Of a stretch of 64,000 nt of DNA, positions 10,458-30,783 are shown piece after piece. Each line of letters starts with the position of its first letter. Within the stretch, counting starts at the first letter, position 1. The notes beneath the pieces are model-generated. The model was not told the origin of the DNA and made no database searches. It saw nothing but the letters and a program-made list of their open reading frames with translations. Source of the stretch: a bacterium (GTDB lineage: Bacteria; Bdellovibrionota; Bdellovibrionia; Bdellovibrionales; Bdellovibrionaceae); NCBI GenBank assembly GCA_019752925.1, contig JAIELP010000006.1:434001-498000 (forward strand). The letters are read 5' to 3'. Position numbers and translations under genes: made by a program.

Positions 10458-10469
10458 GGGGATATAAAA

Positions 10470-12189: not shown

Positions 12190-12199
12190 GGGATTATAA

Positions 12200-12475
12200 A
12201 TGAGTGAAGATATCGTAATCACCCTTGGACAGGATGCTTTAAAAACATTGGCGATGTTATCAGCGCCTTTGTTGCTGAGCACCCTCATTATCGGTTTGAT
12301 CGTCAGTATTTTTCAGGCGCTCACACAGATTAATGAAAACACGTTAACCTTTGTTCCAAAAATGATCGTCGTAGCGATCATTTTGATTTTAGCAGGACCT
12401 TGGATGTTGGATACGATGACCTCGTATACAACTAATTTGTTTGAGAATATTGCAACCATAGTAAGAGGACCTTAA
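12200..12475 (+). CDS. fliQ: Flagellar export gate protein FliQ
   Basis: The 91-residue, two-helix membrane protein has the usual FliQ length and the conserved FQALTQINENTLTFVPKM segment linking the helices. It packs around the FliP ring in the export gate. The last base of its stop is the first base of the fliR ATG. Confidence 0.97.
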   Translation: MSEDIVITLGQDALKTLAMLSAPLLLSTLIIGLIVSIFQALTQINENTLTFVPKMIVVAIILILAGPWMLDTMTSYTTNLFENIATIVRGP

Positions 12476-13260
12476 TGTTCAGTTTTTCGCAGCTAAACGA
12501 AGTACAGATACTTTTATTTGCGCTGATTCTTTTAAGAATGTCGGCGTTTGTAGTATCGGCTGCGATTTTCAATACTGGAAATATTTCAGCTCCTTTAAAA
12601 ATTTTAATTTCATTAGTATTTACTATCGTTGTATATCAGAATCTGGCAACGAACCAAGCCTTGGTTCGTTTAAAAGAGTCTCAAGCCGATTTACTATTAT
12701 TAGCAGGACGCGAAGTTCTTTTGGGTTTGGTTCTGGGCTTTATAACCAGATTATTCTTTTTTGCAATTTCAATGGCGGGCGAGCTGGTTTCAATTTCAAT
12801 GGGCTTAGGTCAGGCACAAATGTTTAATCCGATGATGGGTTCTATGAGTAATGCTATGGAGCAGTTTTATTCTGTAATAGCGACTTTAGTATTTTTAGCT
12901 ATGAATGGCCACCACATGATGATCATGGGGATTGTGGAAAGCTTTCAAACCTCGCCAGTGGCTCAGCTGAGCTTTCATTATTCTTCATTCGCAGAAGTGG
13001 TACTGAAAATGCAGAGTTTCTTTATTATCGGCATTAAAATATCGGCACCTATTCTGATTTCAATGATGATAGTCCAGTTAGGTATTGCATTGTTAAGTCG
13101 TGTGGTTCCGCAGATCAATGTAATGGTAACTTCAGCGTCGGTAACAGTTTTGATCGGGTTTGTGATCTTATTTATTAGTTTGCCTCTATTAGTTATGCAA
13201 ATGGCAGGATTAATGGATTTTTCGATGGGTGAGTTTTTTAAGTTTATTAAAGCGATTTAG
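12475..13260 (+). CDS. fliR: Flagellar export gate protein FliR
   Basis: The 261-residue polytopic membrane protein matches FliR, with the conserved EVLLGLVLGFITRLFFFAI and GLGQAQMFNP segments. A single copy closes the FliP5-FliR export helix. It overlaps fliQ by one base; 55 bases separate it from flhB, the widest gap inside this part of the operon. Confidence 0.96.
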   Translation: MFSFSQLNEVQILLFALILLRMSAFVVSAAIFNTGNISAPLKILISLVFTIVVYQNLATNQALVRLKESQADLLLLAGREVLLGLVLGFITRLFFFAISMAGELVSISMGLGQAQMFNPMMGSMSNAMEQFYSVIATLVFLAMNGHHMMIMGIVESFQTSPVAQLSFHYSSFAEVVLKMQSFFIIGIKISAPILISMMIVQLGIALLSRVVPQINVMVTSASVTVLIGFVILFISLPLLVMQMAGLMDFSMGEFFKFIKAI

Positions 13261-13315
13261 TAGTTAGTTAAAATTTAAAGAGTAACAGGAAGTTACAGAA
13301 AGATAAGAAGCTAGG

Positions 13316-14416
13316 ATGGCTGAAGATCAAGAAGAAAAAACCGAACAGGCAACGGACGCGAGGCGGGAAGAATTCCGTAAACGTGGACAGGTTGCTATGA
13401 CGCGCGAATTAAGCACGGCATTGTTCTTTCTTGCGTCTGCCGGAATCATGTACGCTGCTTCAAGATTTTTCATGACGAATGTTGTTGATATTTTTAACCG
13501 CACAATGGGCGGCGAATTGGTTTACACTATTCGTGAGGGAAAAATTACAGAAATTTTAAGTTACATTGGCTATAAACTGTTAATTCTAGTTTCACCTTTA
13601 TTTTTAGTATCATTAATTATCGGCGTAGCTGCGCAGGTTATGCAAACGGGCTTTTTACAGGTGGAGGATGCCTTACAGCCCAATTTGAACAAATTAAATC
13701 CATTAAATAGTTTAGGTCGCATTTTTTCTATGAAGGGTGTGATGGAACTGTTGAAGTCCATCATTAAGCTAGTTGCGATCAGCTGGATTGTGTATTTAAT
13801 CCTAAAAGCTGAAATAACTAAAATCCCATATTTATCAGGTTATGACTTAGAAACTATGTTTTCGTACTTAGGCGTTATTTCATTTAAATTATTGCTGACT
13901 GTTGGTATTTTTATGCTTGTTTTAGCAACAGCCGATTATTTCTTCCAAAGATGGCAGCTTGAAAAAGAAATGATGATGACCAAGCAGGAAATTAAAGAAG
14001 AACATAAATCCCGCGAAGGTGACCCTTTAATTAAAGCTCGTATACGTAAAGTGCAACGTGAAGTTGCCAGCCGTAAAATGATGCTGGAAGTTCCAAAAGG
14101 CGATGTGGTTATTACAAATCCAACTCATATTGCTGTTGTATTAAAATACTCTGATAAATTACCGGCTCCGCAATTAATTGCAATGGGTGGAGATTTAGTA
14201 GCAGAAAGAATAAAACAAATAGCACGTGAGAATAATATCCCGATAGTGGAAAACAAACCTTTGGCGCGCACCATTTTTAAAACACTGAAAATCGGTCAGG
14301 TGATTCCACGTGAATTATTCGTAGCAGTAGCAGAAGTGCTTTCATACGTTTACAGATTACGTCGTAAAAAAAGAAAATCAGGCAACGTTAATAAAAATGC
14401 TGAGCGAGGATTATAA
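13316..14416 (+). CDS. flhB: Flagellar export switch protein FlhB
   Basis: The 366-residue protein has an N-terminal EEKTEQATDARREEFRKRG motif, four transmembrane helices and the autocleavage motif NPTH at residues 268-271 followed by IAVVLKY. Cleavage between Asn and Pro lets FlhB switch export from rod/hook to filament substrates. The C-terminal tail is long and very basic (RLRRKKRKSGN). It is followed after two bases by flhA. Confidence 0.97.
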   Translation: MAEDQEEKTEQATDARREEFRKRGQVAMTRELSTALFFLASAGIMYAASRFFMTNVVDIFNRTMGGELVYTIREGKITEILSYIGYKLLILVSPLFLVSLIIGVAAQVMQTGFLQVEDALQPNLNKLNPLNSLGRIFSMKGVMELLKSIIKLVAISWIVYLILKAEITKIPYLSGYDLETMFSYLGVISFKLLLTVGIFMLVLATADYFFQRWQLEKEMMMTKQEIKEEHKSREGDPLIKARIRKVQREVASRKMMLEVPKGDVVITNPTHIAVVLKYSDKLPAPQLIAMGGDLVAERIKQIARENNIPIVENKPLARTIFKTLKIGQVIPRELFVAVAEVLSYVYRLRRKKRKSGNVNKNAERGL

Positions 14417-14418
14417 GA

Positions 14419-16506
14419 ATGCAACAAATTTTTCATTTTGCAAAAAGATTTGAAAAGTACACAAAAAATACCGATTTGTTCATCGCATTCGGTGTATTGG
14501 CAATTATCGGTGTAATGATAATCCCGTTACCTGCAGTTATGCTTGATATCTCATTAACATTTTCATTAGCTTTAAGTTTATTAATTTTATTAACTTCAAT
14601 TTACGTAACCAGAACTTTAGATTTCACATCATTCCCATCATTACTTTTAATGACGACCTTATTCCGTTTAGCACTGAATGTTGCAACAACTCGTTTGATT
14701 TTATCACATGGTCATGAAGGCCCGCAGGCAGCCGGTGGAGTTATTCAGGCATTTGCCAATGTTATCGTTGGCAATAACTATGTCATCGGATTTATTATCT
14801 TTGCGATTTTAGTTGTTATTAACTTTATCGTAATCACTAAGGGTTCTGGACGCGTAGCTGAGGTTGCAGCCCGTTTCACATTAGATGCAATGCCAGGTAA
14901 ACAGATGTCGATAGATGCGGAATTAAACGCAGGCGCTATCAATGAGGCTGAAGCTAAAAAGCGTCGTCGTGAAATTGAACAAGAAGCAGACTTTTACGGA
15001 GCCATGGATGGTGCGAGTAAATTCGTACGTGGTGATGCTATTGCCGGTATTATTATTACAGTTATTAATATCGTTGGTGGTTTGTTAATAGGAGTTATGC
15101 AAAAGAATTTAGATTTAACGACTGCTGCTAAGTATTACACCATGTTAACAATAGGTGATGGTCTTTTAGCTCAGATTCCGGCGCTTATCATTTCTACAGC
15201 AGCCGGTATTATTGTTACTCGTAGCAGCTCTGGCGAAAACATGGGTACGGAGGTAACAAGTCAGTTATTTGTTAATCCGCGTGCTATATACATTACTGGC
15301 GGCGTACTTGCTGTACTGGCTTTAATTCCTGGTTTACCTATGATTCCATTTTTAACTATGGCGGGTTTATTAGCTGGTTTTGCATGGATCATTGATCAGT
15401 ATAAAAAAGAAACTGTGGATAATGAAAAGAAAAAAGCAGAAGAGCTTCTTACAGCTCCTAAAAAAGAAAATGTGGAAAGCATGTTACCACTTGATATGGT
15501 GGAACTTGAAGTGGGTTACGGTTTAATTAATGTAGTAGATTCTTCTAAATCAGGCGACTTACTTGAGAGAATTGCTTCAATCCGTAAACAATTTGCATTG
15601 GATTTAGGTATCGTGGTTCCGAGCGTTCATATTCGCGATAACTTACAGCTAAATCCGGGCGAATACAGATTTATGATTAAAGGTAATAAAGTTGGCGGTG
15701 GTATTTTAAAACCTGAAGCTCTTTTAGCGATGGACCCTGGTCAAACTTCAGAACAAATTGATGGAATTGCTACAAAAGAACCTGCTTTCGGCTTAGATGC
15801 AGTTTGGATTTCTCCTACTAACCGTGACCGCGCAGAACTAGCCGGCTATACGGTGGTGGATTTACCGACTGTAATGGCCACGCATATTACTGAAATGATC
15901 CGCACTCATGCGCATGAACTGCTGGGACGTCAGGAAGCTTCTACTCTGGTAGATAACTTCAAGAAAACTCATCCAAAAGTTGTTGAAGATCTTATTCCTG
16001 ATGCACTTTCTCTTGGTGGAGTAGTTAAGGTTTTACAAAACTTGTTGCGTGAACAAGTTTCTATCCGTGATTTATTAACAATCTTTGAAACTTTGGCAGA
16101 TGAAGCGGCGAGAACAAAAGATTTGGATTTATTAACTGAATCGGTACGTAAACAGTTATCACGATCTATTACAGCTAAGTACAGTGCTGAAGACGGTGCC
16201 GTAACGGTTATGACATTTGATTCTAAGTTAGAAGAGTTAGTGGCTAATGCATTATTACAAACTGAACAGGGTGTTCAATTAGTTATGGACCCGCAGTCAG
16301 CTTCAAAGATGATTTCAAATATTGCGGCGCAAATTGAAAATCATCCAGAGATAGCTTCTCAACCGATATTATTAACAAGCCCGACAGTTCGTAGACATAT
16401 TTCAAAATTAGTTTCGCGTTTTATACCGCAGTTGATTGTCTTATCACATAACGAGATTACTGCAGATGTGAAAGTTCAGTCCGTTGCCAACGTTGGTTTA
16501 AATTAA
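14419..16506 (+). CDS. flhA: Flagellar export protein FlhA
   Basis: The 695-residue protein has eight N-terminal membrane helices, the conserved FHIPEP-family cytoplasmic loop (GRVAEVAARFTLDAMPGKQ), and a large cytoplasmic domain that binds export chaperones. FlhA forms the nonameric ring under the export gate and couples proton flow to secretion. Length and motif order are normal for the family. Confidence 0.97.
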   Translation: MQQIFHFAKRFEKYTKNTDLFIAFGVLAIIGVMIIPLPAVMLDISLTFSLALSLLILLTSIYVTRTLDFTSFPSLLLMTTLFRLALNVATTRLILSHGHEGPQAAGGVIQAFANVIVGNNYVIGFIIFAILVVINFIVITKGSGRVAEVAARFTLDAMPGKQMSIDAELNAGAINEAEAKKRRREIEQEADFYGAMDGASKFVRGDAIAGIIITVINIVGGLLIGVMQKNLDLTTAAKYYTMLTIGDGLLAQIPALIISTAAGIIVTRSSSGENMGTEVTSQLFVNPRAIYITGGVLAVLALIPGLPMIPFLTMAGLLAGFAWIIDQYKKETVDNEKKKAEELLTAPKKENVESMLPLDMVELEVGYGLINVVDSSKSGDLLERIASIRKQFALDLGIVVPSVHIRDNLQLNPGEYRFMIKGNKVGGGILKPEALLAMDPGQTSEQIDGIATKEPAFGLDAVWISPTNRDRAELAGYTVVDLPTVMATHITEMIRTHAHELLGRQEASTLVDNFKKTHPKVVEDLIPDALSLGGVVKVLQNLLREQVSIRDLLTIFETLADEAARTKDLDLLTESVRKQLSRSITAKYSAEDGAVTVMTFDSKLEELVANALLQTEQGVQLVMDPQSASKMISNIAAQIENHPEIASQPILLTSPTVRRHISKLVSRFIPQLIVLSHNEITADVKVQSVANVGLN

Positions 16507-16528
16507 AGAATAGGTAAAGAGGTCGACT

Positions 16529-17914
16529 ATGCAAGTTAAAAAGTTTGAAGCCAGAAGCATGAAAGAAGCACTTGAGATGATTAAAACTCAGCTCGGACCT
16601 GATGCGATTATTCTTTCAGCGAAAGAAATTACCAAAGGTTTTGGTTTAGGCGGAGAAAGAAGCATTGAAGTTACGGCGGCTTATTCAGAAGCTGTTTTGA
16701 ATAAGAAAAAATTTACTGAATCTAAAATGATGACTGAGCAAAAAGAGAAATTTCAAAAAATTTCTGCTCGTGATCAAAAAGAAATCATGCGTAAAACTAT
16801 TGAACTGCAAATAGCTAAAATGAATCAAAATCAACCTGCAAAAACTCAAAGTTCGACTCCTAAAATTGCAGCAAGTACAATTCCTTACAAAATGACTGAA
16901 AAAAGATACGCAGATATCGATAATGACGGCGCAGATACAGGTTCATCTATGCCTCAAGATGTGGCGGTTACAGAGGTTGCAAAAAAAGCATGGAACGACA
17001 TGGAAGTAACATCTCTTAAGAAAGAAATCGAAACTTTAAAACAAGTTATGACGCAGTTCCAGCAAGTGCCACAAAGCTTCGTGCAAGCTCATCCAGGTGC
17101 AGATTACGGTGTACATTATCAAATGAGTCCGCATTATCAAAAACTGGTAGCTAGTGGCTTAATGCCTGCAATTGCAGGTGATATTATGATGAATTGTCAA
17201 AAGCAGTTATCGCAAGCTCAGCAAGGAAATAAAAATATTGTTGAAAGTTGGGTTGCTAAACAAATTCTGGATACAACACCGATTTCGCATGAAATGAGTG
17301 AGCAGTTTCATTTATTTGTGGGTCCTTCAGGTTCAGGCAAAACAAGTTCATTAATTAAATTAGCCAGCGACATGATTTTAAATCAGCGTAAACGCGTGGC
17401 GATAATTTCTACTGATTGCACAAAAGTAGGTGCAGCAGAACAAATGAAAATTTTTGCGCAGATCTTAAATGTACCGTTTTTATCAATTCGCTCGCAGCAA
17501 GATTGGTCTCACGTCATTCCGCATTTAGATCAGTTAGATCATATCTTAGTGGATTTCGCGGGACTTAATTTACGTAATCAGGAAGAAGTGAACTACATGA
17601 AGCGTATGTCGCCTCCTGTGTTTAAGTCAATGCGTACGCATTTAGTATTATCAAGCTCGGCTAAAGATGCAGATTTAATCGAAGGAGCTAAACGCTATGA
17701 AGCTTTTGGTTTTAACGACGTGATCTTTACAGGTTTAGATGAAGCCAGTCAGCACGGTAATGTTTACAACTTTGTACGTACTATAAATACCCAATTATTT
17801 GCCTTCGGTATTGGTACAAAAGTTCCGGAAGACTTCGAGTATGCAACAGCTGAAAGAATTGTAGATTTGATTTTAAGAATTACTCAAAATAAAAAGCAGG
17901 AAGCAATAGCATGA
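16529..17914 (+). CDS. flhF: FlhF, SRP-type GTPase for flagellar placement, with atypical G motifs
   Basis: The 461-residue protein has the FlhF N-terminus (MQVKKFEARSMKEALEMIK), a variable middle region with a coiled stretch, and an SRP-GTPase domain from about residue 255. Walker A/G1 is intact (GPSGSGKT, 265-272), but G3, normally DTAGR, reads DFAGLN (342-347), and G4, normally TKLDE, reads TGLDE (401-405), so the base-specifying Lys is replaced by Gly. FlhF places the polar flagellum together with FlhG. The identity is certain from position and N-terminus; whether it still hydrolyses GTP normally is open. Confidence 0.93.
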   Translation: MQVKKFEARSMKEALEMIKTQLGPDAIILSAKEITKGFGLGGERSIEVTAAYSEAVLNKKKFTESKMMTEQKEKFQKISARDQKEIMRKTIELQIAKMNQNQPAKTQSSTPKIAASTIPYKMTEKRYADIDNDGADTGSSMPQDVAVTEVAKKAWNDMEVTSLKKEIETLKQVMTQFQQVPQSFVQAHPGADYGVHYQMSPHYQKLVASGLMPAIAGDIMMNCQKQLSQAQQGNKNIVESWVAKQILDTTPISHEMSEQFHLFVGPSGSGKTSSLIKLASDMILNQRKRVAIISTDCTKVGAAEQMKIFAQILNVPFLSIRSQQDWSHVIPHLDQLDHILVDFAGLNLRNQEEVNYMKRMSPPVFKSMRTHLVLSSSAKDADLIEGAKRYEAFGFNDVIFTGLDEASQHGNVYNFVRTINTQLFAFGIGTKVPEDFEYATAERIVDLILRITQNKKQEAIA

Positions 17915-18717
17915 AGATTATCAGTGTAACATCAGGCAAAGGCGGCGTAGGCAAAACATCAGTGGTCAGTAACATGGCTATGGGTTTATCTAAGCTCGGC
18001 AAGAAGGTTTTGATCTTCGACGGCGATTTAGGAATGGCTAACGTAGATATTTTCTTTGGCGTACACCCTCAGAAAAACTTGCAGGATTTAATAGGTGGAA
18101 CTCCTCTTAAACAGTGTTTAACTCCGGTTGCGCAAAATATTGATTTATTGGCGGGTGGCAGCGGCTTATATAATTTGTGTCACTTAAATGCATTTCAACG
18201 CCGCGATATCTTAGCACAGATAGATGAAATGAATTTTATTTACGATTATCTGATTATCGACACGGCTCCGGGCTTACATGATCATGTATTACATTTAAAT
18301 TCGGTAGCAGATGAGTGCATGGTGATTATCACTCCGGATCCATCAAGCTTTACTGATGCTTACGCACTGATTAAAGTGCTGCATCAAAAGCATAAAACAC
18401 AAAAAATTTCGATTATTTGTAATCAAGTGTTGGATGAAAAATCTGGTGCACAACTTTACTTGCGTTTTGCAGACGTGGTTCAACAGTTTTTACCAATTCG
18501 CTTGAATTACAAAAAAACTATTCCCTATGATCAGCAGTTAAAGCTTTCTAATCAATTGCAACGTCTCATTATAAGACAGGACGCAAAATCAGTTTCATCA
18601 CAGGCTTTAAGCTCGTTATGTGCTGAAATAGTGTCTCAAAATCAAATGGACGCCTCGGCGGGCGGAACTGTGCATGGTCTAGACACATTATTTAGACCAG
18701 CCTCTGGTCATGCTTAA
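17911..18717 (+). CDS. flhG: FlhG/FleN, MinD-like ATPase controlling flagellar number
   Basis: The 268-residue protein begins with the deviant Walker A KGGVGKT near residue 11 and has the MinD-type IFDGDLGMANVDIFFG and IIDTAPG motifs. In polar flagellates FlhG limits flagellum number by acting on FlhF and on the master regulator. It overlaps flhF by four bases (ATGA). The N-terminal activator helix of some FlhG proteins (with a DQAxxLR motif) is absent: the protein begins directly with the first beta strand. Confidence 0.94.
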   Translation: MKIISVTSGKGGVGKTSVVSNMAMGLSKLGKKVLIFDGDLGMANVDIFFGVHPQKNLQDLIGGTPLKQCLTPVAQNIDLLAGGSGLYNLCHLNAFQRRDILAQIDEMNFIYDYLIIDTAPGLHDHVLHLNSVADECMVIITPDPSSFTDAYALIKVLHQKHKTQKISIICNQVLDEKSGAQLYLRFADVVQQFLPIRLNYKKTIPYDQQLKLSNQLQRLIIRQDAKSVSSQALSSLCAEIVSQNQMDASAGGTVHGLDTLFRPASGHA

Positions 18718-18777
18718 ACTGTTTGGACTTTTTAGTATTTAACTTATCGGATAACATAGTTTGTAGAGGGGTCATTA

Positions 18778-19563
18778 ATGTCAAAAGCTAATCTTCTGAA
18801 AAAATATAAAGAAGAACCCAAAAAAAATATTAAGCGCAATCAGAAAGAAGAGCTTATTAAAGAATATGCTCCTTTGATCAAGTTTATTGCACAAAAAATT
18901 GCAGTTAGACTTCCTCCCAATATTGAATTAGATGATTTAATTTCATCAGGTTCTATAGGTTTAATGGACGCTATCGATAAATGGGATCCAACACGTGATA
19001 ATAAATTTAAAACCTATGCAGAGTTCCGTATTCGCGGTGCTATGCTGGATGAATTGCGTTCGCAGGACTGGGTTCCGCGTTCGGTACGTGATAAATCTAA
19101 AGCTCTTGATAAAACTGTAGCGGCTTTAGAAATTGAAATCGGTAGAACTCCCACAGAAGAAGAAATTTCAGCTAAACTGAATATGCCTTTAGAAGAGTTC
19201 CATGATTTAGTAAATCAGGTGCGTCCGGTAAGCTTACTCTCTATTGATGATCAGCCTACATTTACAGATACCGATAAAAAATCCATTGCGAACCTTTTAG
19301 AAGGTGCGAAGTCGGGTAATCCGTTTAATCAATTAAATTTAAAAGTAGTCAAAGATGTGGTGGCGAAAGCTATTGAAGAGCTACCTGAGCGCCAGCGCCT
19401 GGTATTATCTTTATATTACTTCGAAGATCTGAATTTAAAAGAGATTGGCCAAGTTTTACAGGTAACTGAGTCACGCGTGTCGCAATTACACGCTCAGGCT
19501 GTTATCCGTTTAAGAGCAAAATTAACCGCTACAATTGAAGCCGGTGAGTTAGAAGCTATCTAA
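18778..19563 (+). CDS. fliA: RNA polymerase sigma factor FliA (sigma-28)
   Basis: The 261-residue protein has sigma regions 2 (LIKFIAQKIAVRLPPNIELDDLISSG ... KFKTYAEFRIRGAMLDELRSQDW), 3 and 4 (LPERQRLVLSLYYFEDLNLKEIGQVL), and lacks region 1.1, as expected of FliA. The AMLDELRSQDWVPRSVR stretch is the typical FliA pattern. It should transcribe late flagellar and chemotaxis genes. A GAGGGG site precedes the start, and a strong terminator follows the stop. Confidence 0.95.
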   Translation: MSKANLLKKYKEEPKKNIKRNQKEELIKEYAPLIKFIAQKIAVRLPPNIELDDLISSGSIGLMDAIDKWDPTRDNKFKTYAEFRIRGAMLDELRSQDWVPRSVRDKSKALDKTVAALEIEIGRTPTEEEISAKLNMPLEEFHDLVNQVRPVSLLSIDDQPTFTDTDKKSIANLLEGAKSGNPFNQLNLKVVKDVVAKAIEELPERQRLVLSLYYFEDLNLKEIGQVLQVTESRVSQLHAQAVIRLRAKLTATIEAGELEAI

Positions 19564-19916: not shown

Positions 19917-21737
19917 ATGCCGGCTCATTTCAAACGCGTCTATTTAAATTCTGTGGGCTCTTTTTTACCAGGGCCTGCAATTAATAATGAAGAAATGGAT
20001 GCCTATGTAGGCTCTATCAATACGCAATCATCACGCATCAAAAGACGTATTCTTGCCGAAAACGGAATTCAGAATCGTCATTACGGAATTAATAAAGAAG
20101 GGCAAACCATGTACTCTTCTTCGCAAATGGCGGCAAAAGCTATTGATGATACTTTGTCTAAAATTAATAAAAATATAAACGAGATTCCTTTTTTGAGTTC
20201 GGGAACTGTGGGAGCTGATTTGGCGGCACCAGGTTTTGCTAATTTAATTCAAGGTCACTACAAAGCTGCACCTATGCAGACTATGTCTTTTCAAGGTATA
20301 TGTGCCTCTGGCGTAGCGGCTATGAAAGCAGCTGCGCAGGTTGTAGAGTTGCAGGAGTTTAAAAGCTCTGTAGCTGTAGCTACAGAGTTCCCATCACGTT
20401 TATTTAAAGCTTCACGATTTCAAAAGATTGAAGAGAACGTGGATTTTGACTCACATTTTTTACGTTGGATGTTATCCGACGGTGCCGGCGCGGTTTGTTT
20501 TGAAGATAAACCAAATGAAAAAGGTATTTCATTAAAGCTCGATTGGATTCATTTAAAGTCTTTCAGCGGTGATTATCCTACCTGTATGCAAATCGGCGCT
20601 CCTTGGAGTGATCCTAATAAAAGTTATTTAGACTATTCTTCTTTAGAAGAAGCCGAAAAAAACGGTTCTTTCCTATTACGTCAAGACATCCGCTTACTAC
20701 CTAACTTATTTGATGTAGGTGTAAGCGAATTTATGAGCTTAGTTTTAAACAACGATGTTCAACCTCAGGAAATTGATTATTTTCTTTGCCATTATTCTTC
20801 AGAAAGATTTTCGGGCGTTATTAAAACATTACTGGATAAAGCCGGTTTAACAATTCCTCCTGAAAAATGGTTCAGTAATTTAAAAACTAAAGGTAATACA
20901 GGTGCCGCTTCAATATTTATCATGATGGATGAATTTATGAAGACACATGATCTGAAACCTGGGCAAAAAATTATGTGCTTCGTGCCTGAGTCAGGCCGCT
21001 TTACGGTTTCATTCTTATTATTTGAAGTGATTAAAGACGGAAAAGCTAATGAGATAAAAAAAACTACGCCGCCTGTTCGCAAACCTGTAGAAAGCTTATT
21101 ATTGGAGCTTGGAGCTATCTGGCATGATTACCGATCGAGTGTTTTGCGCTCTGAATTTGCCCATAAAATTTTTAACGGCACAATTACAAAAACTGACTAT
21201 CAGAAATGGATGGAAAACTGGATTCCGCAGGTGCGCGAAGGAAGTATCTGGATGCGTACAGCCATTTCAAACTTATCCACTAAGTTTGAAGGCATTCAAG
21301 AATTAATCGAGATGCACGCTGGTGAAGAACAGTTCGACTTTAATATTCTCTATTCCGATTATAAAAATGCCGGCGGCGCAAAAGCTTTAGACGATTTAAA
21401 GCGTAATGCTGGTGGTGAGGAACTTAATAACTTTATGTACACCAAAGCCCGATCAAAAGATCCGCTAGGTTTATTGGGTGGTATTTTTATTATTGAAGGT
21501 ACAGGTAACAAAATTATTCCAACATTACTTCCGTTTCTTAAAAAAGGTTTAAATATGCAGATGAACGTATTTAAATTCTTAGAGTATCACGGTGAAAATG
21601 ACGTTCATCATATTGAGCGTTGGGCTAATGCCGTAGAAATGGCTTTAGCTATTGAACCATCAAGTTACGACGAAATTATAGCCACTGCACGTAAAGTGGC
21701 GGAGCTTTATAAAAAGCAATGGGAGCTTGTTCTATGA
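19917..21737 (+). CDS. Ketoacyl-ACP synthase III fused to a heme-oxygenase-like putative diiron oxidase
   Basis: Residues 1-375 are a KAS III/thiolase-fold enzyme with the catalytic triad visible: Cys129 in FQGICASG, His292 in FLCHYSSE and Asn327 in KGNTGAAS. After a short Pro-rich linker (384-390), residues 391-606 are all helical and match the heme-oxygenase-like fold annotated as iron-containing redox enzyme. Candidate metal ligands are Glu441, His467/Glu470, Glu527 and an H-x3-D-x2-H motif (His558, Asp562, His565), the spacing known from diiron oxidases such as SznF. The fusion suggests that an acyl condensation product is oxidised on the same polypeptide. It heads an operon with ATGA overlaps to the next gene. 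Chemistry and substrate are inferred, not shown. Confidence 0.82.
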   Translation: MPAHFKRVYLNSVGSFLPGPAINNEEMDAYVGSINTQSSRIKRRILAENGIQNRHYGINKEGQTMYSSSQMAAKAIDDTLSKINKNINEIPFLSSGTVGADLAAPGFANLIQGHYKAAPMQTMSFQGICASGVAAMKAAAQVVELQEFKSSVAVATEFPSRLFKASRFQKIEENVDFDSHFLRWMLSDGAGAVCFEDKPNEKGISLKLDWIHLKSFSGDYPTCMQIGAPWSDPNKSYLDYSSLEEAEKNGSFLLRQDIRLLPNLFDVGVSEFMSLVLNNDVQPQEIDYFLCHYSSERFSGVIKTLLDKAGLTIPPEKWFSNLKTKGNTGAASIFIMMDEFMKTHDLKPGQKIMCFVPESGRFTVSFLLFEVIKDGKANEIKKTTPPVRKPVESLLLELGAIWHDYRSSVLRSEFAHKIFNGTITKTDYQKWMENWIPQVREGSIWMRTAISNLSTKFEGIQELIEMHAGEEQFDFNILYSDYKNAGGAKALDDLKRNAGGEELNNFMYTKARSKDPLGLLGGIFIIEGTGNKIIPTLLPFLKKGLNMQMNVFKFLEYHGENDVHHIERWANAVEMALAIEPSSYDEIIATARKVAELYKKQWELVL

Positions 21738-22645
21738 GCCGATCGAATTTTCCAGGTATCGATCATATAATTCATGACCCGAATGATCCGAATCCGTGGC
21801 ATGCACTCTATTTAGATAACAGCACTCCAATCAGACCTACCACTAAAGAAAAGTGGCTGCGCGATTCGGGCTCGCTTTCGCGCCAATTCTTTTTACCCTT
21901 TGCGCGACCGTTTGCAAAACTGATGATCATGATTGTTCAGGTTATTAAGGCACTTTCTCCTATCGATTGGAGAGCTTCCAAAACTTTACACAAAATTATT
22001 GCCTTCAGTCTTAAAACTTTTGTTCGAGCTGATGCCAACGAGTTGATTTTGCGCCACTTTCACGCAGGCTCTGAAATTTTGGCTTTTATTGCTGGAAATG
22101 TTAAGGGCACTAATATTCCGCTCAATCCTTTAAAGCCGCGTAATTTAAAAGGTCTCGAAGATGATACGATTTTAAAGCACGACATAAACATCTATAATTT
22201 TGTAATTAATTTGAATTTACAGCTCAAAGAAAAAAATCTTAAAATTGTACCGGTTCCGGCAGATGAAATTGACTATTCGATGATTACCGAAAGTGAGTTT
22301 GATATAGAGCCGATGAAAGACGGGTTTTTAAATTTTATTGACCTTGAAACCGCTATCGAGCTTTATACTCCGTTTTTCCAATTTATGCTGACTGATAACG
22401 ATTTCTGGCGTGCAACCAACTCGTTACAGTTAGACGAAACCATAGGGCTTTATGGAGCTACAATCATGAACTCTACTCAACTGATGGTTTTAGTTAATAA
22501 CAAACATCCTATGATCTCCTTAGTTACGCTGAATGCAGGCTTCAGACTTGTGCTTCACGGTTTATCTACTGAGATGGCTCATTGGTTTCTGGTTCAGAAA
22601 AAAATAGAACAACGCGCTTTAAGGCAGCAAAAAGCCCATGCTTGA
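21734..22645 (+). CDS. Protein of unknown function in the ketosynthase-oxidase operon
   Basis: The start at 21734 overlaps the upstream stop as ATGA and has GGGAG eight bases before it; an ATG 15 bases earlier is less likely. The 303-residue product is not one I recognise. It has a basic, amphipathic stretch with a hydrophobic segment (about residues 55-75) that could bind a membrane, several histidines in helical context (LRHFHAGSEILAF), and no signal peptide. Being locked between a lipid-type synthase and two fatty-acid-hydroxylase family genes by overlaps, it probably acts in the same pathway. Confidence 0.85.
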   Translation: MSRSNFPGIDHIIHDPNDPNPWHALYLDNSTPIRPTTKEKWLRDSGSLSRQFFLPFARPFAKLMIMIVQVIKALSPIDWRASKTLHKIIAFSLKTFVRADANELILRHFHAGSEILAFIAGNVKGTNIPLNPLKPRNLKGLEDDTILKHDINIYNFVINLNLQLKEKNLKIVPVPADEIDYSMITESEFDIEPMKDGFLNFIDLETAIELYTPFFQFMLTDNDFWRATNSLQLDETIGLYGATIMNSTQLMVLVNNKHPMISLVTLNAGFRLVLHGLSTEMAHWFLVQKKIEQRALRQQKAHA

Positions 22646-23384
22646 TATTACAATTGAACAAATCATCAGTTTGGGGCGCTTAAATTTTTTCCTGATAACA
22701 GTGGGTTACTTCGTATTTCTTTACTTTGCTTTTACGCTTCCAGCGTATTATTTTTTTACTAAAGGTAAACATTTTCAGCTATTCCAAAAAAAAGATTTCA
22801 GACCCAATCAAATTAAAACAGAAATTCAGAGATCAATGGTTTCAATTTTAATGTTTGGAATTCTAGCTTTTCCGATGTATGAGGGCTTAAGGCTTGGAAT
22901 TTTAAATATTAAATTTGAGTTCAACTGGTTAATTTTTATTTGGGAGTCTATTGCACTGTTTTTATGGAATGAAATTCACTTTTATGTGGTTCACCGTACA
23001 TTTCATTTTAAAATATTCTATAAATATCATGCAGATCACCATTATTCCAATGTGCCGAGTCCATTTTCGGCCTATAGTTTTCATTGGAGCGAGGGGATAC
23101 TGCTTGGTGCAGTTATGCCGATTATTATGCTCTTTCATGATTTTCAATTTTATGCACTTATGACCTTACCGGTGATGAGTATTATGATGAACGTTTTAGG
23201 ACACTCAAATGTCGATTTTAATCCGGACCAATCGATGAACCATCTGATGAGTTTTTCAAAACGTCATTCGCAACATCATAAAATCCCTCATTCAAATTAT
23301 GGTTTTTTCTTACCTTATTTTGATATTTTATTTAAAACTGACGGTGATGGAACCGGAAATCACGGTAAAAATAGCAAAACATGA
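22638..23384 (+). CDS. Fatty acid hydroxylase/sterol desaturase superfamily membrane protein, first copy
   Basis: The 248-residue protein has four to five membrane helices and the histidine clusters of the non-heme diiron superfamily: HRTFH, HADHH in KYHADHHYS, and HSQHH near the C-terminus (KRHSQHHKIPHSNYG). These enzymes hydroxylate or desaturate lipid chains at the membrane face using O2. It overlaps the upstream gene by 8 bases and the next by 4. The second copy is clearly related but diverged, so each may act at a different position of the same lipid. Confidence 0.9.
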   Translation: MLDITIEQIISLGRLNFFLITVGYFVFLYFAFTLPAYYFFTKGKHFQLFQKKDFRPNQIKTEIQRSMVSILMFGILAFPMYEGLRLGILNIKFEFNWLIFIWESIALFLWNEIHFYVVHRTFHFKIFYKYHADHHYSNVPSPFSAYSFHWSEGILLGAVMPIIMLFHDFQFYALMTLPVMSIMMNVLGHSNVDFNPDQSMNHLMSFSKRHSQHHKIPHSNYGFFLPYFDILFKTDGDGTGNHGKNSKT

Positions 23385-24139
23385 CAGAAATTTTTATAAA
23401 GATTTTTGCGGCGGGTGTTATTAAATATTTAATTATTTTTGCTCTTCCATATTTTATTTTCTGGAAGTTATTTCCGCAAAAGGTTAAAAATCTTAAAATA
23501 CAAGCTGTGGAAAGGCAAAAGCCTCAGATCCCTCTGGAGCTTCGTTATTCTTTTTCAACACTGATCATTCAATCGCTAATTTTTTTAAGTATTTACTGGC
23601 TTAATGAAAAAGGCATATTCAATATTTATGCAGGTTTTGGTTCTCAGGGTTATTTAAGGGAAGCTGCAGGGTTTGTAATTTATTTTGTGGTTTACGATGC
23701 TTATTTTTACTGGTCGCACCGGCTTTTACACGAAGGCTGGTTTTATAAAAAAGTTCATGTGGTTCATCATATGTCATTGAACCCCACGCCCTTTGCTTCT
23801 TATTCATTTCATCCAATTGAAGCGGTGGTGAGTCTTGTTTATTTTTATCCTGTTTTGTATTTTTGTCCTATGAGTTTTGAACTATTTTTACTTTTAATTG
23901 TTTTAACGGATTTTGGAAATTTAGCCGGGCATCTTGGTTATGATTTTATTCCTAAAGCTATGTGGAAAAGTAAGTGGGGAGCCTGGTTAACTACACCTAC
24001 GCACCACAATATGCACCATCAATATTCGCGGTCTAATTTTGGTTTATACTGGCGTGGCTGGGATGAGATGTTTAAAACTCTACGCAGCCGTACCGGGCAA
24101 GAATTTATAAGGGTTAAAGACCAAGGAGATTTTTTATGA
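23381..24139 (+). CDS. Fatty acid hydroxylase/sterol desaturase superfamily membrane protein, second copy
   Basis: The 252-residue membrane protein shows HRLLH, HVVHH (KKVHVVHHMSLNPTPFASY) and a C-terminal THHNMHH cluster, plus GHLGYDF between them. All diiron ligand clusters are present, so it should be active. The ATGA overlaps on both sides show that it is translated with its neighbours. It resembles the preceding gene product in topology and motif order, consistent with an old tandem duplication. Confidence 0.9.
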   Translation: MTEIFIKIFAAGVIKYLIIFALPYFIFWKLFPQKVKNLKIQAVERQKPQIPLELRYSFSTLIIQSLIFLSIYWLNEKGIFNIYAGFGSQGYLREAAGFVIYFVVYDAYFYWSHRLLHEGWFYKKVHVVHHMSLNPTPFASYSFHPIEAVVSLVYFYPVLYFCPMSFELFLLLIVLTDFGNLAGHLGYDFIPKAMWKSKWGAWLTTPTHHNMHHQYSRSNFGLYWRGWDEMFKTLRSRTGQEFIRVKDQGDFL

Positions 24140-24851: not shown

Positions 24852-25838
24852 ATGAATGATTCCATTTTTTTCATAAATGCTCTGCCTCCCAATGATCGTA
24901 GAAGTGATTTGGATTATGTATCTACTTTAGATTTTTCTATACAAAAAAGCTGCGATCTGGGATTCAAACATACATTAATAACTATTGGTGATAAGCGATA
25001 TGATCCTTGGGTGTTAGCACAGTATGGGTTGAGTAAAAATGTTAGCTTTAAACCGTTGATAGCAACGAACCCCATCCATCAGCACCCGGTTGCATTAGCA
25101 AAACGATTAATTTCGTTAAAAAGCATTTTTAGTACTGAGGTGGCTTTAAATTTGGTTTCTGGTTCATTTGTTTCGGAGTTAAAATCCATAGGAAATAATT
25201 TAAATTTTGAACAACGTAATGAGCGCTTGATTGAGTTTCTTAAAATTATCCAAGATTTAGGCTCAACTAGCTCAACGTACTCTTTCAATGGTAAATATTA
25301 TCAAATTGAAAATGTAGATCTGTATCCACGCACCTTAACTAGCGCAAAAAATAGTATATTTATTTCAGGCCATTTTGAAGCTCAATTACCTCAATATGTT
25401 AATGAGGCAATTTATTTTGTTAAAAACTACCGGCCACTTGACCAATTACAAAAGGCATTTAGCTCGAAAAGCGGTTTAAACGTGGGCATTTGCGCACGCT
25501 CTACTGATGCTGAAGCTATGTCGGCTGTTCATGATCTTTATCCAATGGATCGTCAGGGTGAAATGCTATTTACCTTGGCTGTAAATAACAATGAAACACC
25601 TTGGAATATCTGGATTAAAGATTATCTTAAAAAGAACCGGGATGATGACCCACTATTTTACCTGAAGCCTTTTAAAAATTATCAATCATCAGCACCGTTT
25701 ATAGTTGGTTCGTACGAAAAGGTGGCTGAGCATCTGAAAAAATGTACGGAGCTGAACTACAATTTCTTTATTTTGGATTATCACCGCAGCGACCACGATC
25801 ACATTAAAGTTTTAATGCAGATGTTGAAGCCATCTTAA
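24852..25838 (+). CDS. Luciferase-like (LLM class) flavin-dependent monooxygenase
   Basis: The 328-residue protein fits the bacterial luciferase/alkanesulfonate monooxygenase TIM barrel: a first strand IFFINALPP, then KPLIATNPIHQHPVALAKR and ALNLVSGSF, the strand 3-4 pattern of SsuD-like enzymes. They use FMNH2 (or F420) and O2. Stand-alone members in biosynthetic clusters hydroxylate carrier-bound intermediates; the carrier-protein gene 42 bases downstream makes that plausible here. 119 bases separate it from the preceding operon, so it probably starts a new transcript. Confidence 0.83.
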   Translation: MNDSIFFINALPPNDRRSDLDYVSTLDFSIQKSCDLGFKHTLITIGDKRYDPWVLAQYGLSKNVSFKPLIATNPIHQHPVALAKRLISLKSIFSTEVALNLVSGSFVSELKSIGNNLNFEQRNERLIEFLKIIQDLGSTSSTYSFNGKYYQIENVDLYPRTLTSAKNSIFISGHFEAQLPQYVNEAIYFVKNYRPLDQLQKAFSSKSGLNVGICARSTDAEAMSAVHDLYPMDRQGEMLFTLAVNNNETPWNIWIKDYLKKNRDDDPLFYLKPFKNYQSSAPFIVGSYEKVAEHLKKCTELNYNFFILDYHRSDHDHIKVLMQMLKPS

Positions 25839-25880
25839 AACTAAGTTGTTTTTAATTTAGGCCAATGCTAATTTTAATGT

Positions 25881-26189
25881 ATGGCATCTCATATTGAAAT
25901 CATAGATCTTGTTATCCGTCCAAGCTTACAAAAAGCATGTTCGACTATTCCTAATGTAAATGCCAAGGGCGATATATCCGCCATAATTTTTTACGGACAG
26001 GAGGGCGCTATTTTAGACTCTCTTAACTTAGTTAATTTTATTTTCTTACTAGAATCTCAGCTAAGTGAGGTTTTAAAAGTTAACGTTAAATTTGAAACGG
26101 AAGATATTTTAAATACTGAATTAAAGCCTTTTTTAAATGTCGCAAATTTAACTTTATTTTTAGAAAAAAAAATGAAAGAAGCGAAGTGA
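25881..26189 (+). CDS. Acyl carrier protein-like protein
   Basis: The 102-residue protein is ACP-sized and has ILDSLNLVNFIFLLE, the DSL motif at which Ser47 would take 4'-phosphopantetheine, followed by the normal helix II. The rest is helical and moderately divergent from the fatty-acid ACP. The GTGA overlap with the AMP-ligase gene (26186) implies that the ligase charges this carrier, as DltA charges DltC. No Shine-Dalgarno site is obvious. Confidence 0.82.
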   Translation: MASHIEIIDLVIRPSLQKACSTIPNVNAKGDISAIIFYGQEGAILDSLNLVNFIFLLESQLSEVLKVNVKFETEDILNTELKPFLNVANLTLFLEKKMKEAK

Positions 26190-27553
26190 TCGGTAAAGGC
26201 ACAAGCCTATTAGGCGTAATAGCACAGCATATGTCTGACATTTTTTTAATTACGGACTCTGCTGAGTTCAGCTATGCTGATTTGTTCGCAAGAGTAAACT
26301 CACTAGCTATACGTTTAAAAAATAAACCAGTAAAAAATATTATTGTGCTAGAGTCTGAAAATAATTTCGATTGTTACGTTAAAGTTTTAGCGTTGATTGA
26401 AAGTCGGCATCCATTTTTAGTTTTACCGCTCTATTTATTTAATAATTTAAAGTATAGAGAATTTTTAAATTCTGAACTGAAGTCATCTTTGATTTTTTGT
26501 TCGCTTAATTCTGATATCACTCGAATTGCTGATGAGAATCAACAAAACCGTCTTCATAATCTTATTCAAATTGCCGTTAATTCTGACAAAACTCCCTTTT
26601 TGGTAAGAACATCTGGATCATCGGGAAACCCGCATAAATTTATTCTTCATGACGCTGAACTTTTTTTAAAAAAATATCAAAAAGTAGGTCCACATTTTCA
26701 ATCTACCTTTGCATTTTCACCTGCAGAGTCCATTGCAGGTATTGAAACTTTATTAGAGTGTGTTATGCATGGTAAAAAATTAATAGCCGCCCAAGGAACC
26801 TATTCTCCTGATAAAATCAGTAAGCTTTTAGGTCTTCATCATGTTGATTACTTTCAAACCACTCCTTCTTTTTTAAATTTAATGTTATTTGCCGGAGAAT
26901 TAAAATCTGATAAATTACCTTACTTAAAAAAAATTGCGTATGGTTCAGAGCCTTCGTACTCAAGTACAACCAATGCATTAAAAAAAGCACTGCCATTTGT
27001 AGATTTAATACATACCTATGGAATGTCTGAAATCGGGATATTAAAAACTATAACGGACCAAGCTCGGGCTGATAGTTTTAAATTTGATAATTTTTACAAT
27101 GAAGGTCGCATCATCGACGGATATCTAGAAGTGAAAAGCGCAACGCCTATGTTGGGTTATTTAAACTATATAAATGAAGAAGCATCAGATTGGTTTAGAA
27201 CCGGCGATCTGAGTGAAATCGATAGCAACACTCAGCTTGTTAAAGTACTGGGGCGCGAAGGTGATCTTATAAATGTGGCAGGACAAAAATTTTTTCCGAT
27301 TGAGCTTGAAACCTTAGTGCTTGAAATGGCCGAAATTATAGATGTGTTAGTAGCAAAAGAAAAACATTCTTTGGTAGGCGAAGCAATCGTGATGAAATTG
27401 AATTTAGACAAAAATACGACAATTGAACAGTTCCAGAAAAAATTTAAAGTGTTTTGCGAAAACAAGTTACCACGTTTTATGCATCCTCACAGATTGATAT
27501 TTGTTGATCAACCGCTTTCAAACGATAGATTTAAAAAGGTCCGCGTCGAATGA
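26186..27553 (+). CDS. AMP-forming acyl/aminoacyl ligase (adenylation enzyme)
   Basis: The 455-residue protein starts at GTG. It has the adenylation motifs in order: P-loop TSGSSGNPHK (142-151), YGSEPS, HTYGMSEIG, WFRTGDLSEID, a hinge LGREGDLINVAGQKFFP and a C-terminal Lys near 450 in NDRFKKVRVE. It is shorter than usual (about 500-550), with a compact N-terminus. It should activate a carboxylic or amino acid and load it on the carrier encoded just upstream. The substrate cannot be read reliably. It overlaps the MBOAT gene by 4 bases. Confidence 0.9.
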   Translation: MIGKGTSLLGVIAQHMSDIFLITDSAEFSYADLFARVNSLAIRLKNKPVKNIIVLESENNFDCYVKVLALIESRHPFLVLPLYLFNNLKYREFLNSELKSSLIFCSLNSDITRIADENQQNRLHNLIQIAVNSDKTPFLVRTSGSSGNPHKFILHDAELFLKKYQKVGPHFQSTFAFSPAESIAGIETLLECVMHGKKLIAAQGTYSPDKISKLLGLHHVDYFQTTPSFLNLMLFAGELKSDKLPYLKKIAYGSEPSYSSTTNALKKALPFVDLIHTYGMSEIGILKTITDQARADSFKFDNFYNEGRIIDGYLEVKSATPMLGYLNYINEEASDWFRTGDLSEIDSNTQLVKVLGREGDLINVAGQKFFPIELETLVLEMAEIIDVLVAKEKHSLVGEAIVMKLNLDKNTTIEQFQKKFKVFCENKLPRFMHPHRLIFVDQPLSNDRFKKVRVE

Positions 27554-28869
27554 GTTATAACAGTCCGCTCTTTTTCTTATTAATTCTGTTCTCTATAATA
27601 ATATTTTTAATAAGTCCTCCGCGATTTCGGGTTTGGGTGCTGTTGCTTAGCAGCGCGGTATGGTACTACACATGGAGTCCTTGGTGGTGTGTGCTGCTTT
27701 TCACTTATACAGCGGTGCTATACTTTTTAATTAAATGGACTAAGCGCTATACAGCCTTAATTTTTTTCAATATTGTGCTGTTTGTATTTTTAAAGTCGAT
27801 CAATAGGTTTTTTCCGAATGTCGCCAGCCCTAATGGAATTAGTTTTTACTTTTTCAGTATCTTGGGTCTGTTAATAGATCAAAAGCGTAGCCGAACCGAT
27901 AATTTCAACATCAGGTTTGACTATTTTATGTTGTTTCCGGGCTATTTTGTAACTTTGCTTGCGGGACCTATTATGCGGGCCAAAGTTTTTTTTGAACAAC
28001 TGCAATTTACGCAAAAAGCTTCATTCAATAATATTGTAGATGGCGCTATTGTCTTTTTTGTGGGATTTTTTAAGTTGCAGGTTCTCATCGCGCCGCTAGT
28101 CCAAATAACCACACAACTTTTTGCAAGCTACCGAGCCGATCACTTTTATTTTTGGTTGGCTTGTTTTTTATCTACTTTCAGAGCTTACATTGAATTTTCG
28201 AGCTACTGTGATATGGGCCGCGGCGTAAGCCGTTGTTTCGGTATTAACCTGAATATTAACTTTAAGGCTTTCTACTATGCAAAATCACCTATTGATTTCT
28301 GGAATCGATGGAATATTACAATAGGCGAATGGCTACGTGACTATTTAAGTTTTCCTTTGATGCTCAAGTTTGGTAAACAAATTAATCAGTCAGTTTTAAT
28401 TATTCTCAGCTTTGTGATACTCGGATTATGGCACGGGATCAGTTTGAACTGGGCATTGTTCGGCTTATTTAATGGTATTTTGGTCAGCTGTTTTTATTTT
28501 TTAAGTCGCAGTCTTGCCCAAAAGCCAAAAATGCTTGGCTTGTTCGGGTACATATTAGCTTGGGTCATTTTTTTAGGAAATGGTTTGTTTTCCAAAACAA
28601 ACTTTATACAGCTTTTAAGTCTAAAGCGAAGTCTAGAGCCAGGATTAATGGCGCAATACAGTTTACTGCCTTGGGTGATCTGTTTCTTCATACTTTTGAT
28701 ATTTGAGTTTTTTCAAGAAAAAATGAAAAATGTGGATTTTTACTTAACTTGGCCAAATGCACTGAAATCGTTTGTCGCTATTGTACTACTATCTTTATTT
28801 TTATATCAGATGACCATGCAAATATCAGATGCTCCTAATATATTGCCACCACTTTATTTCAGATTTTGA
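27550..28869 (+). CDS. MBOAT-family membrane O-acyltransferase (DltB/AlgI-like)
   Basis: The 439-residue protein has about ten to twelve membrane helices and the MBOAT core DFWNRWNITIGEWLRDYLSFP followed by LGLWHGISLNW with the invariant His295. The RWH of most DltB/AlgI proteins reads RWN (Asn255), as in some eukaryotic MBOATs. Proteins of this group pass an acyl or D-alanyl group across the membrane onto a polymer. The ATGA overlap with the ligase gene places it in the carrier-ligase pathway. The 3' end overlaps the convergent hydratase gene by 16 bases. Confidence 0.92.
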   Translation: MSYNSPLFFLLILFSIIIFLISPPRFRVWVLLLSSAVWYYTWSPWWCVLLFTYTAVLYFLIKWTKRYTALIFFNIVLFVFLKSINRFFPNVASPNGISFYFFSILGLLIDQKRSRTDNFNIRFDYFMLFPGYFVTLLAGPIMRAKVFFEQLQFTQKASFNNIVDGAIVFFVGFFKLQVLIAPLVQITTQLFASYRADHFYFWLACFLSTFRAYIEFSSYCDMGRGVSRCFGINLNINFKAFYYAKSPIDFWNRWNITIGEWLRDYLSFPLMLKFGKQINQSVLIILSFVILGLWHGISLNWALFGLFNGILVSCFYFLSRSLAQKPKMLGLFGYILAWVIFLGNGLFSKTNFIQLLSLKRSLEPGLMAQYSLLPWVICFFILLIFEFFQEKMKNVDFYLTWPNALKSFVAIVLLSLFLYQMTMQISDAPNILPPLYFRF

Positions 28870-29600
28870 AATTTTTTACTTTTTCTTTTAGCTGCTGAGG
28901 CTTTTGCCCATTTTTTTAAGGTATTTTCTTTAATTGGGTCAGTGTTGTTCAGTATTCTTTTTACTTCAACTAAGGCGTCGTATGAATTTTGTGAAATTAG
29001 CTTTAATACTTCATTTGTTTTTTTATTCAGATTTTTATTTGTCGTAACGTGAGTAGCTAAACCTAACTTGGCAGCTTTAGATGATGTAATCGGTAAGCCC
29101 GTTGTGCCGTAATGCTTAAATGCCTTTGCACCGATTTTTCTGGTCACAATAGGGCTGATTATTCCTGGAATTAGTCCTAACTTAACTTCGGGCATTCTAA
29201 ATACGGTATTAGTCTCGCAAATAACAACATCTGCAGAGCAAGCTAAGCCTACACCGCCGCCAAGAGCTAAGCCTTTAATCTGGGCTACTATTGGGCGTTT
29301 AAAATTTAAAATAGCATTGTACATGCGTACCAGTTTGAGCATGTCTTTGTAGTTTTCATCAGAGCTAAGATTAGCAGCGGCGGCCATCCAATTTAGATCT
29401 GCTCCTGCGCAAAAGTTTTTACCCGATGATTTTAAGCAAACAATTTTAATTTTTTTATTCTTTTGTGCGGCTATAAAAATTTTTTCTAAATCTCTAATAA
29501 GCAATGGGTTTAAAGCATTGTGTTTTTTGGGGTTATTTAAAGTAATATTTAAAATTCCATTTTTATAATTGATTTTTAAAAATTTAAATGAATTCAGCAC
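28854..29600 (-). CDS. Enoyl-CoA hydratase/isomerase family protein, LiuC-like
   Basis: The 248-residue crotonase-fold protein has the oxyanion-hole segments FCAGADLNWM and GLALGGGVGLACSAD, and the PEVKLGLIPGIISP stretch with the catalytic-region Glu. FCAGADLNWM and the later pattern are closest to methylglutaconyl-CoA hydratases. It lies 7 bases downstream of the type III polyketide synthase gene on the same strand; crotonase-fold partners are known for DpgA-type synthases, so it may release or tailor the polyketide. The C-terminus is unusually Lys-rich. Confidence 0.88.
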   Translation of the reverse strand: MLNSFKFLKINYKNGILNITLNNPKKHNALNPLLIRDLEKIFIAAQKNKKIKIVCLKSSGKNFCAGADLNWMAAAANLSSDENYKDMLKLVRMYNAILNFKRPIVAQIKGLALGGGVGLACSADVVICETNTVFRMPEVKLGLIPGIISPIVTRKIGAKAFKHYGTTGLPITSSKAAKLGLATHVTTNKNLNKKTNEVLKLISQNSYDALVEVKRILNNTDPIKENTLKKWAKASAAKRKSKKFQNLK

Positions 29601-29607
29601 TGAAGGT

Positions 29608-30666: not shown

Positions 30667-30783
30667 ATCTAAAGTGTACCTCAGCAATTGATAATACGAG
30701 CCAATTGCTGCACTGCATTTTTATAAAATTGCACAACAAAAATAATCTTAACAATTCAGAGGCAAAGACTAACACTCAAGAGA

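Follow-up and report, generated by a model that had tools for sequence, protein, structure and literature searches.

Ketosynthases of the StlD/DarB group act in stilbene and dialkylresorcinol biosynthesis, the rings being of the cyclohexanedione or resorcinol type. The dar cluster of Azoarcus has the gene order darA-darB-darD-darE, in which darA is labelled 'DAR-aromatase' and darB 'DAR-cyclase' (PMC3949708), and heterologous expression of darB and darA from C. pinensis gave a dialkylresorcinol, DAR (PMC3992019). For the heme-oxygenase-like dimetal oxidases (HDOs), the accessible text of a review describes a 3H/3C ligand set for the majority and a 3H/4C set for about a quarter, in addition to a mononuclear variant (PMC13108848). 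The main text of that review mentions neither ketosynthases nor fusions, and in the open-licence PMC literature we found no published fusion of a ketosynthase (KS) with an HDO and no mention of DUF6999, a domain that will be of importance below.

The gene described here, located at 19917-21737 on the forward strand of the window, that is, of the whole 64,000-nucleotide stretch of Bdellovibrionales DNA that was analysed, is a single ORF that encodes 606 residues. Its residues 1-376 (19917..21044) constitute a StlD/DarB-like ketosynthase domain of the KAS III type, as judged from its match to StlD, the profile NF005293 and the conservation of its triad; residues 377-390 (21045..21086) form a linker that varies in length and sequence across the alignments; and residues 391-606 (21087..21734) form an HDO domain recognised through PF14518, the structure 3dde and hhalign. 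Pfam detects ACP_syn_III_C (E 3.7e-12) and Haem_oxygenas_2 (PF14518) in the same 606-residue protein, the latter with 31.4 bits against a cut-off of 28.9, and two genomes of the same genus encode the fusion with identities of 79% and 77% across its 606 residues.

An earlier note on this DNA had proposed such a fusion, together with a domain-architecture search. A scan of the contig collection with the HDO half found 149 relatives, of which the best 80 were retained, and in 79 of these best 80 KS and HDO lie in one frame (L064 is a C-terminal part at a contig end and is uninformative; contig ends truncate L035 and L039, which still span the junction; L032 starts at query residue 27, and the KS part of L043 is split over two frames). 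Together, the same-genus copies and the single-frame relatives rule out a chance or assembly join. At the sequence level, the fusion of a KAS III-type ketosynthase and a C-terminal HDO-type domain in a single polypeptide is thereby confirmed, profile, alignment and conservation all bearing out the earlier proposal.

The KS-HDO architecture is widespread in Proteobacteria, and the scan with its 149 relatives led us to reject the idea of a lineage-specific curiosity. At least 53 of the 80 best relatives belong to Burkholderiales, including 29 from Achromobacter; others among these 80 come from Cellvibrio, Thiothrix, Lysobacter, Methylotenera and Woeseia, from four Bdellovibrionales and from one Acidobacteriota MAG. 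The closest named relatives of the window protein are those of the Bdellovibrionales MAGs L029 and L030, whose last 400 residues match the proteins of the same-genus genomes G005 and G004, respectively. Among 140 genomes of the window's order, ten encode a DarB-type KS at E <= 1e-30, six as fusions and four without HDO, and 300 Burkholderiales genomes comprised 13 with the fusion and six with an HDO-less DarB. Five of these 13 Burkholderiales fusions aligned as two pieces within one open frame, four of the five being confirmed as single ORFs, and all 13, some of which also stand in the 88-row alignment introduced below, keep the KS triad and all six putative ligand positions. An unfused arrangement exists in Pseudoalteromonas sp. 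THAF3 (L119), where separate genes for KS, HDO and DUF6999 directly follow one another under the annotations beta-ketoacyl-ACP synthase III, iron-containing redox enzyme and hypothetical protein; the six ligand positions are kept here too, and since the HDO alone misses a Pfam E of 0.05, it was recognised through alignment. The fusion is also present in an Achromobacter mucicolens strain (L051), at what we take to be likely the same locus as the resorcinol locus of another strain of this species, IA. The latter was described as an antiSMASH 'resorcinol' cluster with a core gene called DarB, a 3-oxoacyl-ACP synthase III, and the accessible description of this cluster does not mention an HDO domain (PMC9045304).

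By sequence, the closest solved relative of the KS half is StlD (PDB 5gk0; phmmer E 2.2e-71, residues 6-371). The top NCBIfam model is likewise that of the StlD/DarB family ketosynthases, NF005293, which matches residues 8-372 with 362.5 bits and thus stays below its cut-off of 450, as does the second StlD/DarB model, NF053539, with 307.2 bits for a cut-off of 550; the KS-only control L007 passes NF005293 (544.6 bits) and fails NF053539 (478.9 bits). A FabH-like identity was rejected because the respective models, PRK09352 with 88.2 bits and TIGR00747 with 72.5 bits, score far below the StlD/DarB model. The fusion KS therefore shares with StlD and DarB the KAS III type, as judged by sequence, and the Cys-His-Asn triad, but differs from these HDO-less ketosynthases in its additional domain and in scoring under their cut-offs. 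Its triad residues are C129 (20301-20303), H292 (20790-20792) and N327 (20895-20897), all on the forward strand. They were followed through an alignment of 88 fusion rows, composed of the 80 best scan relatives and eight from the window and the genome search; four loci occur twice in it (L004/L030, L005/L029, L023/L033 and L026/L082), leaving 84 distinct loci. In the rows that have a letter at the position, C129 is conserved in 85 of 85, H292 in 87 of 87 and N327 in 87 of 87. In a tree of 48 KS rows, with FabH as the far group, the canonical fusions are set apart from a set, itself supported at 98/100, in which the split form groups with the ligand-poor fusions and with ketosynthases of the DarA type. 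This topology would be compatible with an early KS-HDO pairing and subsequent HDO loss toward DarA-type systems, two gains being conceivable too; the direction hangs on the outgroup, whose branch is long, and the tree leaves several forks open.

As for the HDO half, alignment A3 consists of 42 fusions and three KS-only controls, and 42 of these 45 members have a PF14518 match at E <= 0.001. A PDB sequence search with the domain matched no characterised HDO and returned 3dde only; this heme-oxygenase-like structure of unassigned function was also the one significant solved structure for the domain profile A5 (E 1.9e-9). In the A5 alignment, E471 falls on a Glu of 3dde, D474 on a His, E527 on a Glu, H558 on a His, D562 on an Asp and H565 on a His. 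The same register was obtained with hhalign, at a probability of 98.4, for eight PF14518 proteins with an E-x2-H motif (L155-L162, of which L159-L161 have identical motif letters and are probably near copies), with D474 aligning to the His of this motif. The other PF14518 spacing type, which we presume to be 'CADD-like', was rejected at a probability of 12 (14 proteins). These 22 proteins are the compared part of 30 control loci; the comparison did not include L133-L137, and L139, L143 and L153 yielded no ORF with the third-helix motif. The window's genome has a second PF14518 match, at G000:C2:448874-449317 (E 1.5e-14), in an open frame of 238 residues.

The putative metal ligands are distributed over three helices: an E-x2-D pair in the first (21327..21338; E471 at 21327-21329 and D474 at 21336-21338), E527 in the second (21495..21497) and the H-x3-D-x2-H motif of H558, D562 and H565 in the third (21588..21611), all on the forward strand. 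H467, D474, E527 and H558 are invariant in all 88 aligned fusions, while E471, D562 and H565 are present in 86, so that the full set of six is kept in 86 of 88. The two exceptions, L006 and L024, are 36% identical to the window protein and have Gly, Glu and Asn in place of E471, D562 and H565; these natural KS-HDO fusions (L006:1483-3384 and L024:1483-3384) have retained the domain with three of the six putative ligands gone. The gene after the L024 fusion encodes a GH3-family protein (PF03321, E 9.9e-33).

With UndA, SznF, BesC, AetD, PolF and CADD, the domain shares the PF14518/heme-oxygenase-like kinship, the H-x3-D-x2-H motif and the second-helix Glu; it differs from this superfamily in being joined to a ketosynthase and, by alignment, in the first helix, where UndA, for example, has the spacing E101-x2-H104. 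Five of the six positions agree with the 3H/3C set, but in all 88 fusions Asp474 takes the place of the first-helix His. As both registers place D474 where relatives carry His, the set E, D, E, H, D, H is likely to be 2H/4C instead of the usual 3H/3C. The invariant H467 is not obviously a substitute ligand, since 3dde has the same His. A 2H/4C set is not among the ligand sets given in the accessible text of the HDO review (PMC13108848).

Taken against these results, the ORF and coordinates of the earlier note and all residues that it had named (C129, H292, N327, E527, H558, D562 and H565) proved correct, and its intact KS triad and HDO-type C-terminal domain find support in profile matches, alignment and conservation. 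Its list of candidate ligands named four of the six positions and had left out the first-helix pair E471/D474; its KAS III label agrees with the triad and left the StlD/DarB group unmentioned. Its comparison with SznF fits as far as the general H-x3-D-x2-H motif is concerned; in the profile comparison the domain falls close to the E-x2-H spacing type and not to the presumably CADD-like one.

The fusion gene is followed on the same strand by a gene for a DUF6999 protein (PF22523, E 4.5e-117) at 21719..22645, which overlaps its end; an alternative start at 21734 would reduce the overlap to four bases. Two genes for membrane fatty-acid-hydroxylase-family proteins come next, also on the forward strand, at 22638..23384 (PF04116, E 1.4e-20) and 23381..24139 (PF04116, E 9.5e-28). 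In the flanks of the best 80 fusion loci, which extend to up to 8 kb and are shorter at contig ends, DUF6999 was found in 79, with none seen in L101. It lies directly downstream of the fusion or overlaps it in 74 of the 80, about 1.5 kb downstream in L041, L044, L053 and L062, and upstream on the other strand in L032; a 4-base overlap was seen in 36 loci with longest-ORF calls. Homologues of a membrane fatty acid hydroxylase occur in the flanks of 65 loci and of a fatty acid desaturase in 56, and in 51 of the 80 the genes for hydroxylase, desaturase, fusion and DUF6999 follow one another in this order on a single strand.

At the genome level, this association is exact. In the two order samples, 440 genomes in total, DUF6999 occurs in precisely the 17 genomes that have a six-ligand fusion, namely the four intact-fusion genomes of the window's order (138 genomes searched, taken to include G057 and G117) and the 13 fusion genomes among the 300 Burkholderiales. 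For L006 and L024, the two ligand-poor fusions (genomes G057 and G117), no DUF6999, DarA or hydroxylase was found in the surrounding 18-19 kb, and their genomes had no DUF6999 match in the order-wide search. A search of 187 Pseudomonadota genomes gave three DUF6999 matches, none beyond the genomes already found. Among 14 named control genomes, Caulobacter vibrioides alone has a DUF6999 match, and PF14518 matches occur in Caulobacter vibrioides and Sulfolobus acidocaldarius. A DUF6999 profile had no match in the PDB up to E 1. In 18 DUF6999 sequences, the polar residues H113, H154-D155, D239-E240, H263, H280 and E285-x2-H288 are invariant or nearly so, and because of these many residues DUF6999 looks like an enzyme or a metal site and not like a structural protein.

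Two further blocks of the window adjoin the operon. Directly upstream of the fusion, a flagellar block (9435-19563) encodes, according to Pfam, FliM, FliP, FlhB, FHIPEP, an SRP54-type GTPase, a MinD-like ATPase and a sigma-70 factor; a similar sigma gene lies upstream of the fusion in L004 and is absent upstream in L005. Beside the fusion operon, at 24852-32499, lies a second biosynthetic-looking cluster, with genes for a luciferase-like monooxygenase, a small ACP-like protein without Pfam match, an AMP-binding ligase, a DltB-like MBOAT, an enoyl-CoA hydratase, a type III polyketide synthase resembling DpgA (374.8 bits for a cut-off of 425) and a protein that matches GDSL lipases weakly, under the cut-off; the cluster is reminiscent of DpgA joined to an acyl-transfer set of the Dlt type. 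In a comparison of the seven proteins with the regions flanking the 80 loci, the enoyl-CoA hydratase had homologues in four, and the luciferase-like, ACP, ligase, MBOAT, DpgA and exported GDSL-like proteins had none, leaving a membership of this cluster in the fusion system unsupported.

An indication of function comes from the distribution of DarA, a flavodoxin-like dialkylresorcinol aromatase whose family has a weak match to flavodoxin and is distinct from the HDOs. In the 440 genomes of the two orders, those with DarA are exactly the ten that have a DarB without HDO, and none of the 19 fusion genomes is among them. For the window's order these are four of 140 genomes, the same four that have the HDO-less DarB, against none of six fusion genomes; for Burkholderiales they are six of 300, again the same six and with DarA adjacent to DarB, against none of 13. 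The probability of the pooled split under random labels is 5e-8 with kinship ignored, a value that is only a guide, since genomes within an order are not independent. Nor did the flanks of the 80 fusion loci, which span up to 8 kb and are shorter near contig ends, contain a DarA. The HDO-less DarB loci of the window's order have the arrangement darA-darB-darD-darE, and of 14 KS-only loci, 12 are accompanied by DarA, DarD and DarE (G040, G042, G008, G115, G271 and L122-L128), while L121 has DarA and DarD with no DarE detected, and a DarA homologue adjoins the HDO-less KS of the Streptomyces plasmid locus L120. The DarB of G271 is thus a further HDO-less one, beside those of the ten genomes, that goes with DarA.

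From this partition, which is correlational and in which genomes of one order are related, the simplest reading is that the HDO would supply DarA's oxidative step, the two being proposed to act in the same manner on a DarB-type product. We accordingly propose, at a confidence a little short of even, that the fusion is a self-contained resorcinol-type synthase in which the KS forms the ring and the HDO aromatises it in place of DarA, with DUF6999 as a partner. The KS half would condense two fatty-acid-derived acyl units to a 2,5-dialkyl-1,3-cyclohexanedione or its carboxylate, like StlD/DarB; the HDO half would bind two metals and use O2 to oxidise this ring; and dehydrogenation with loss of CO2 would give the aromatic dialkylresorcinol, which is DarA's job in DarAB systems. 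In UndA, a fatty acid carboxylate binds Fe1 directly and undergoes oxidative decarboxylation (PMC13108848); in parallel, the ring carboxylate might chelate Fe1 and be lost as CO2 oxidatively. The HDO step would depend on DUF6999 as an obligatory partner, and the alkyl chains might be modified further through the membrane hydroxylase and desaturase genes. From these patterns we infer metal binding, the use of O2, the ring substrate, aromatisation and the parts played by DUF6999 and the membrane genes. Counting against the proposal are the KS scores under the StlD/DarB cut-offs, a ligand set that the accessible text of the HDO review does not list, the coexistence of both systems in G337 and G338 described below, the lack of a DUF6999 counterpart in the DarA clusters, and the ligand-poor fusions, whose genomes are devoid of DarA as well, so that some fusion owners seem to have neither oxidase. 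The 'unusual oxidised, decarboxylated or unsaturated acyl chains' envisaged in the earlier note appear too loose a description, as ketosynthases of the StlD/DarB type make rings and the gene partition points to a DarA-like oxidative step. A more specific version, in which a 2H/4C HDO, with the carboxylate-rich set of some ferritin-like diiron enzymes on a heme-oxygenase fold, aromatises the cyclohexanedione made by its own KS, with DUF6999 as exclusive partner and as a non-homologous replacement of DarA in one polypeptide, is tentative enough that we regard it as doubtful.

It is also conceivable, though rather unlikely, that the HDO oxidises the KS-made cyclohexanedione to something other than a resorcinol, such as a hydroxylated, ring-contracted or quinone-like compound, and that DUF6999 acts on that product. 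Two of the seven genomes searched via fusion loci, G337 and G338, carry the fusion as well as a DarA-DarB-DarD-DarE set in which DarA stands beside a separate DarB, and as both systems coexist there, their products may differ. Moreover, DUF6999 tracks the intact HDO exactly and no counterpart of it was found in DarA clusters, so that the two pathways differ by more than one enzyme, and the ligand set of the HDO is unusual. The absence of DarA from all 19 fusion genomes, on the other hand, is most simply explained as a replacement. This absence would also be left unexplained if the HDO acted before condensation, on a fatty acyl substrate, either by an UndA-like decarboxylation or by a desaturation yielding an alpha,beta-unsaturated partner for the KS, as DarA is the enzyme after DarB; HDO-less DarB homologues, besides, obtain their acyl partners without an HDO. 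We therefore consider such a feeding role improbable, even though UndA takes fatty acids, other HDOs desaturate (PMC13108848) and the desaturase and hydroxylase neighbours point to lipid chains.

Least probable, to a degree that makes us give it little weight, is a non-catalytic C-terminal domain serving dimerisation or substrate channelling, with metal binding as a relic. In its favour, L006 and L024 have kept the domain despite the loss of three ligand positions, and with Asp in place of His the ligand set is no longer the common one. However, the six positions are kept in all 86 of the remaining aligned fusions, from 82 distinct loci, in all 13 Burkholderiales fusions and in the unfused Pseudoalteromonas gene, and the loss of ligands goes with the loss of DUF6999, as expected of functional ligands.

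The proposed resorcinol-type synthase activity provides a candidate function for a family that automatic annotation may simply label 'resorcinol/DarB' and whose members come from Beta- and Gammaproteobacteria, Bdellovibrionales and one Acidobacteriota MAG. If the proposal is true, aromatisation would join the chemistry of the HDOs, an unrelated oxidase would have replaced DarA, and DUF6999 would gain a pathway. It would also document an unusual His-to-Asp change in a metal ligand, kept in every aligned fusion.
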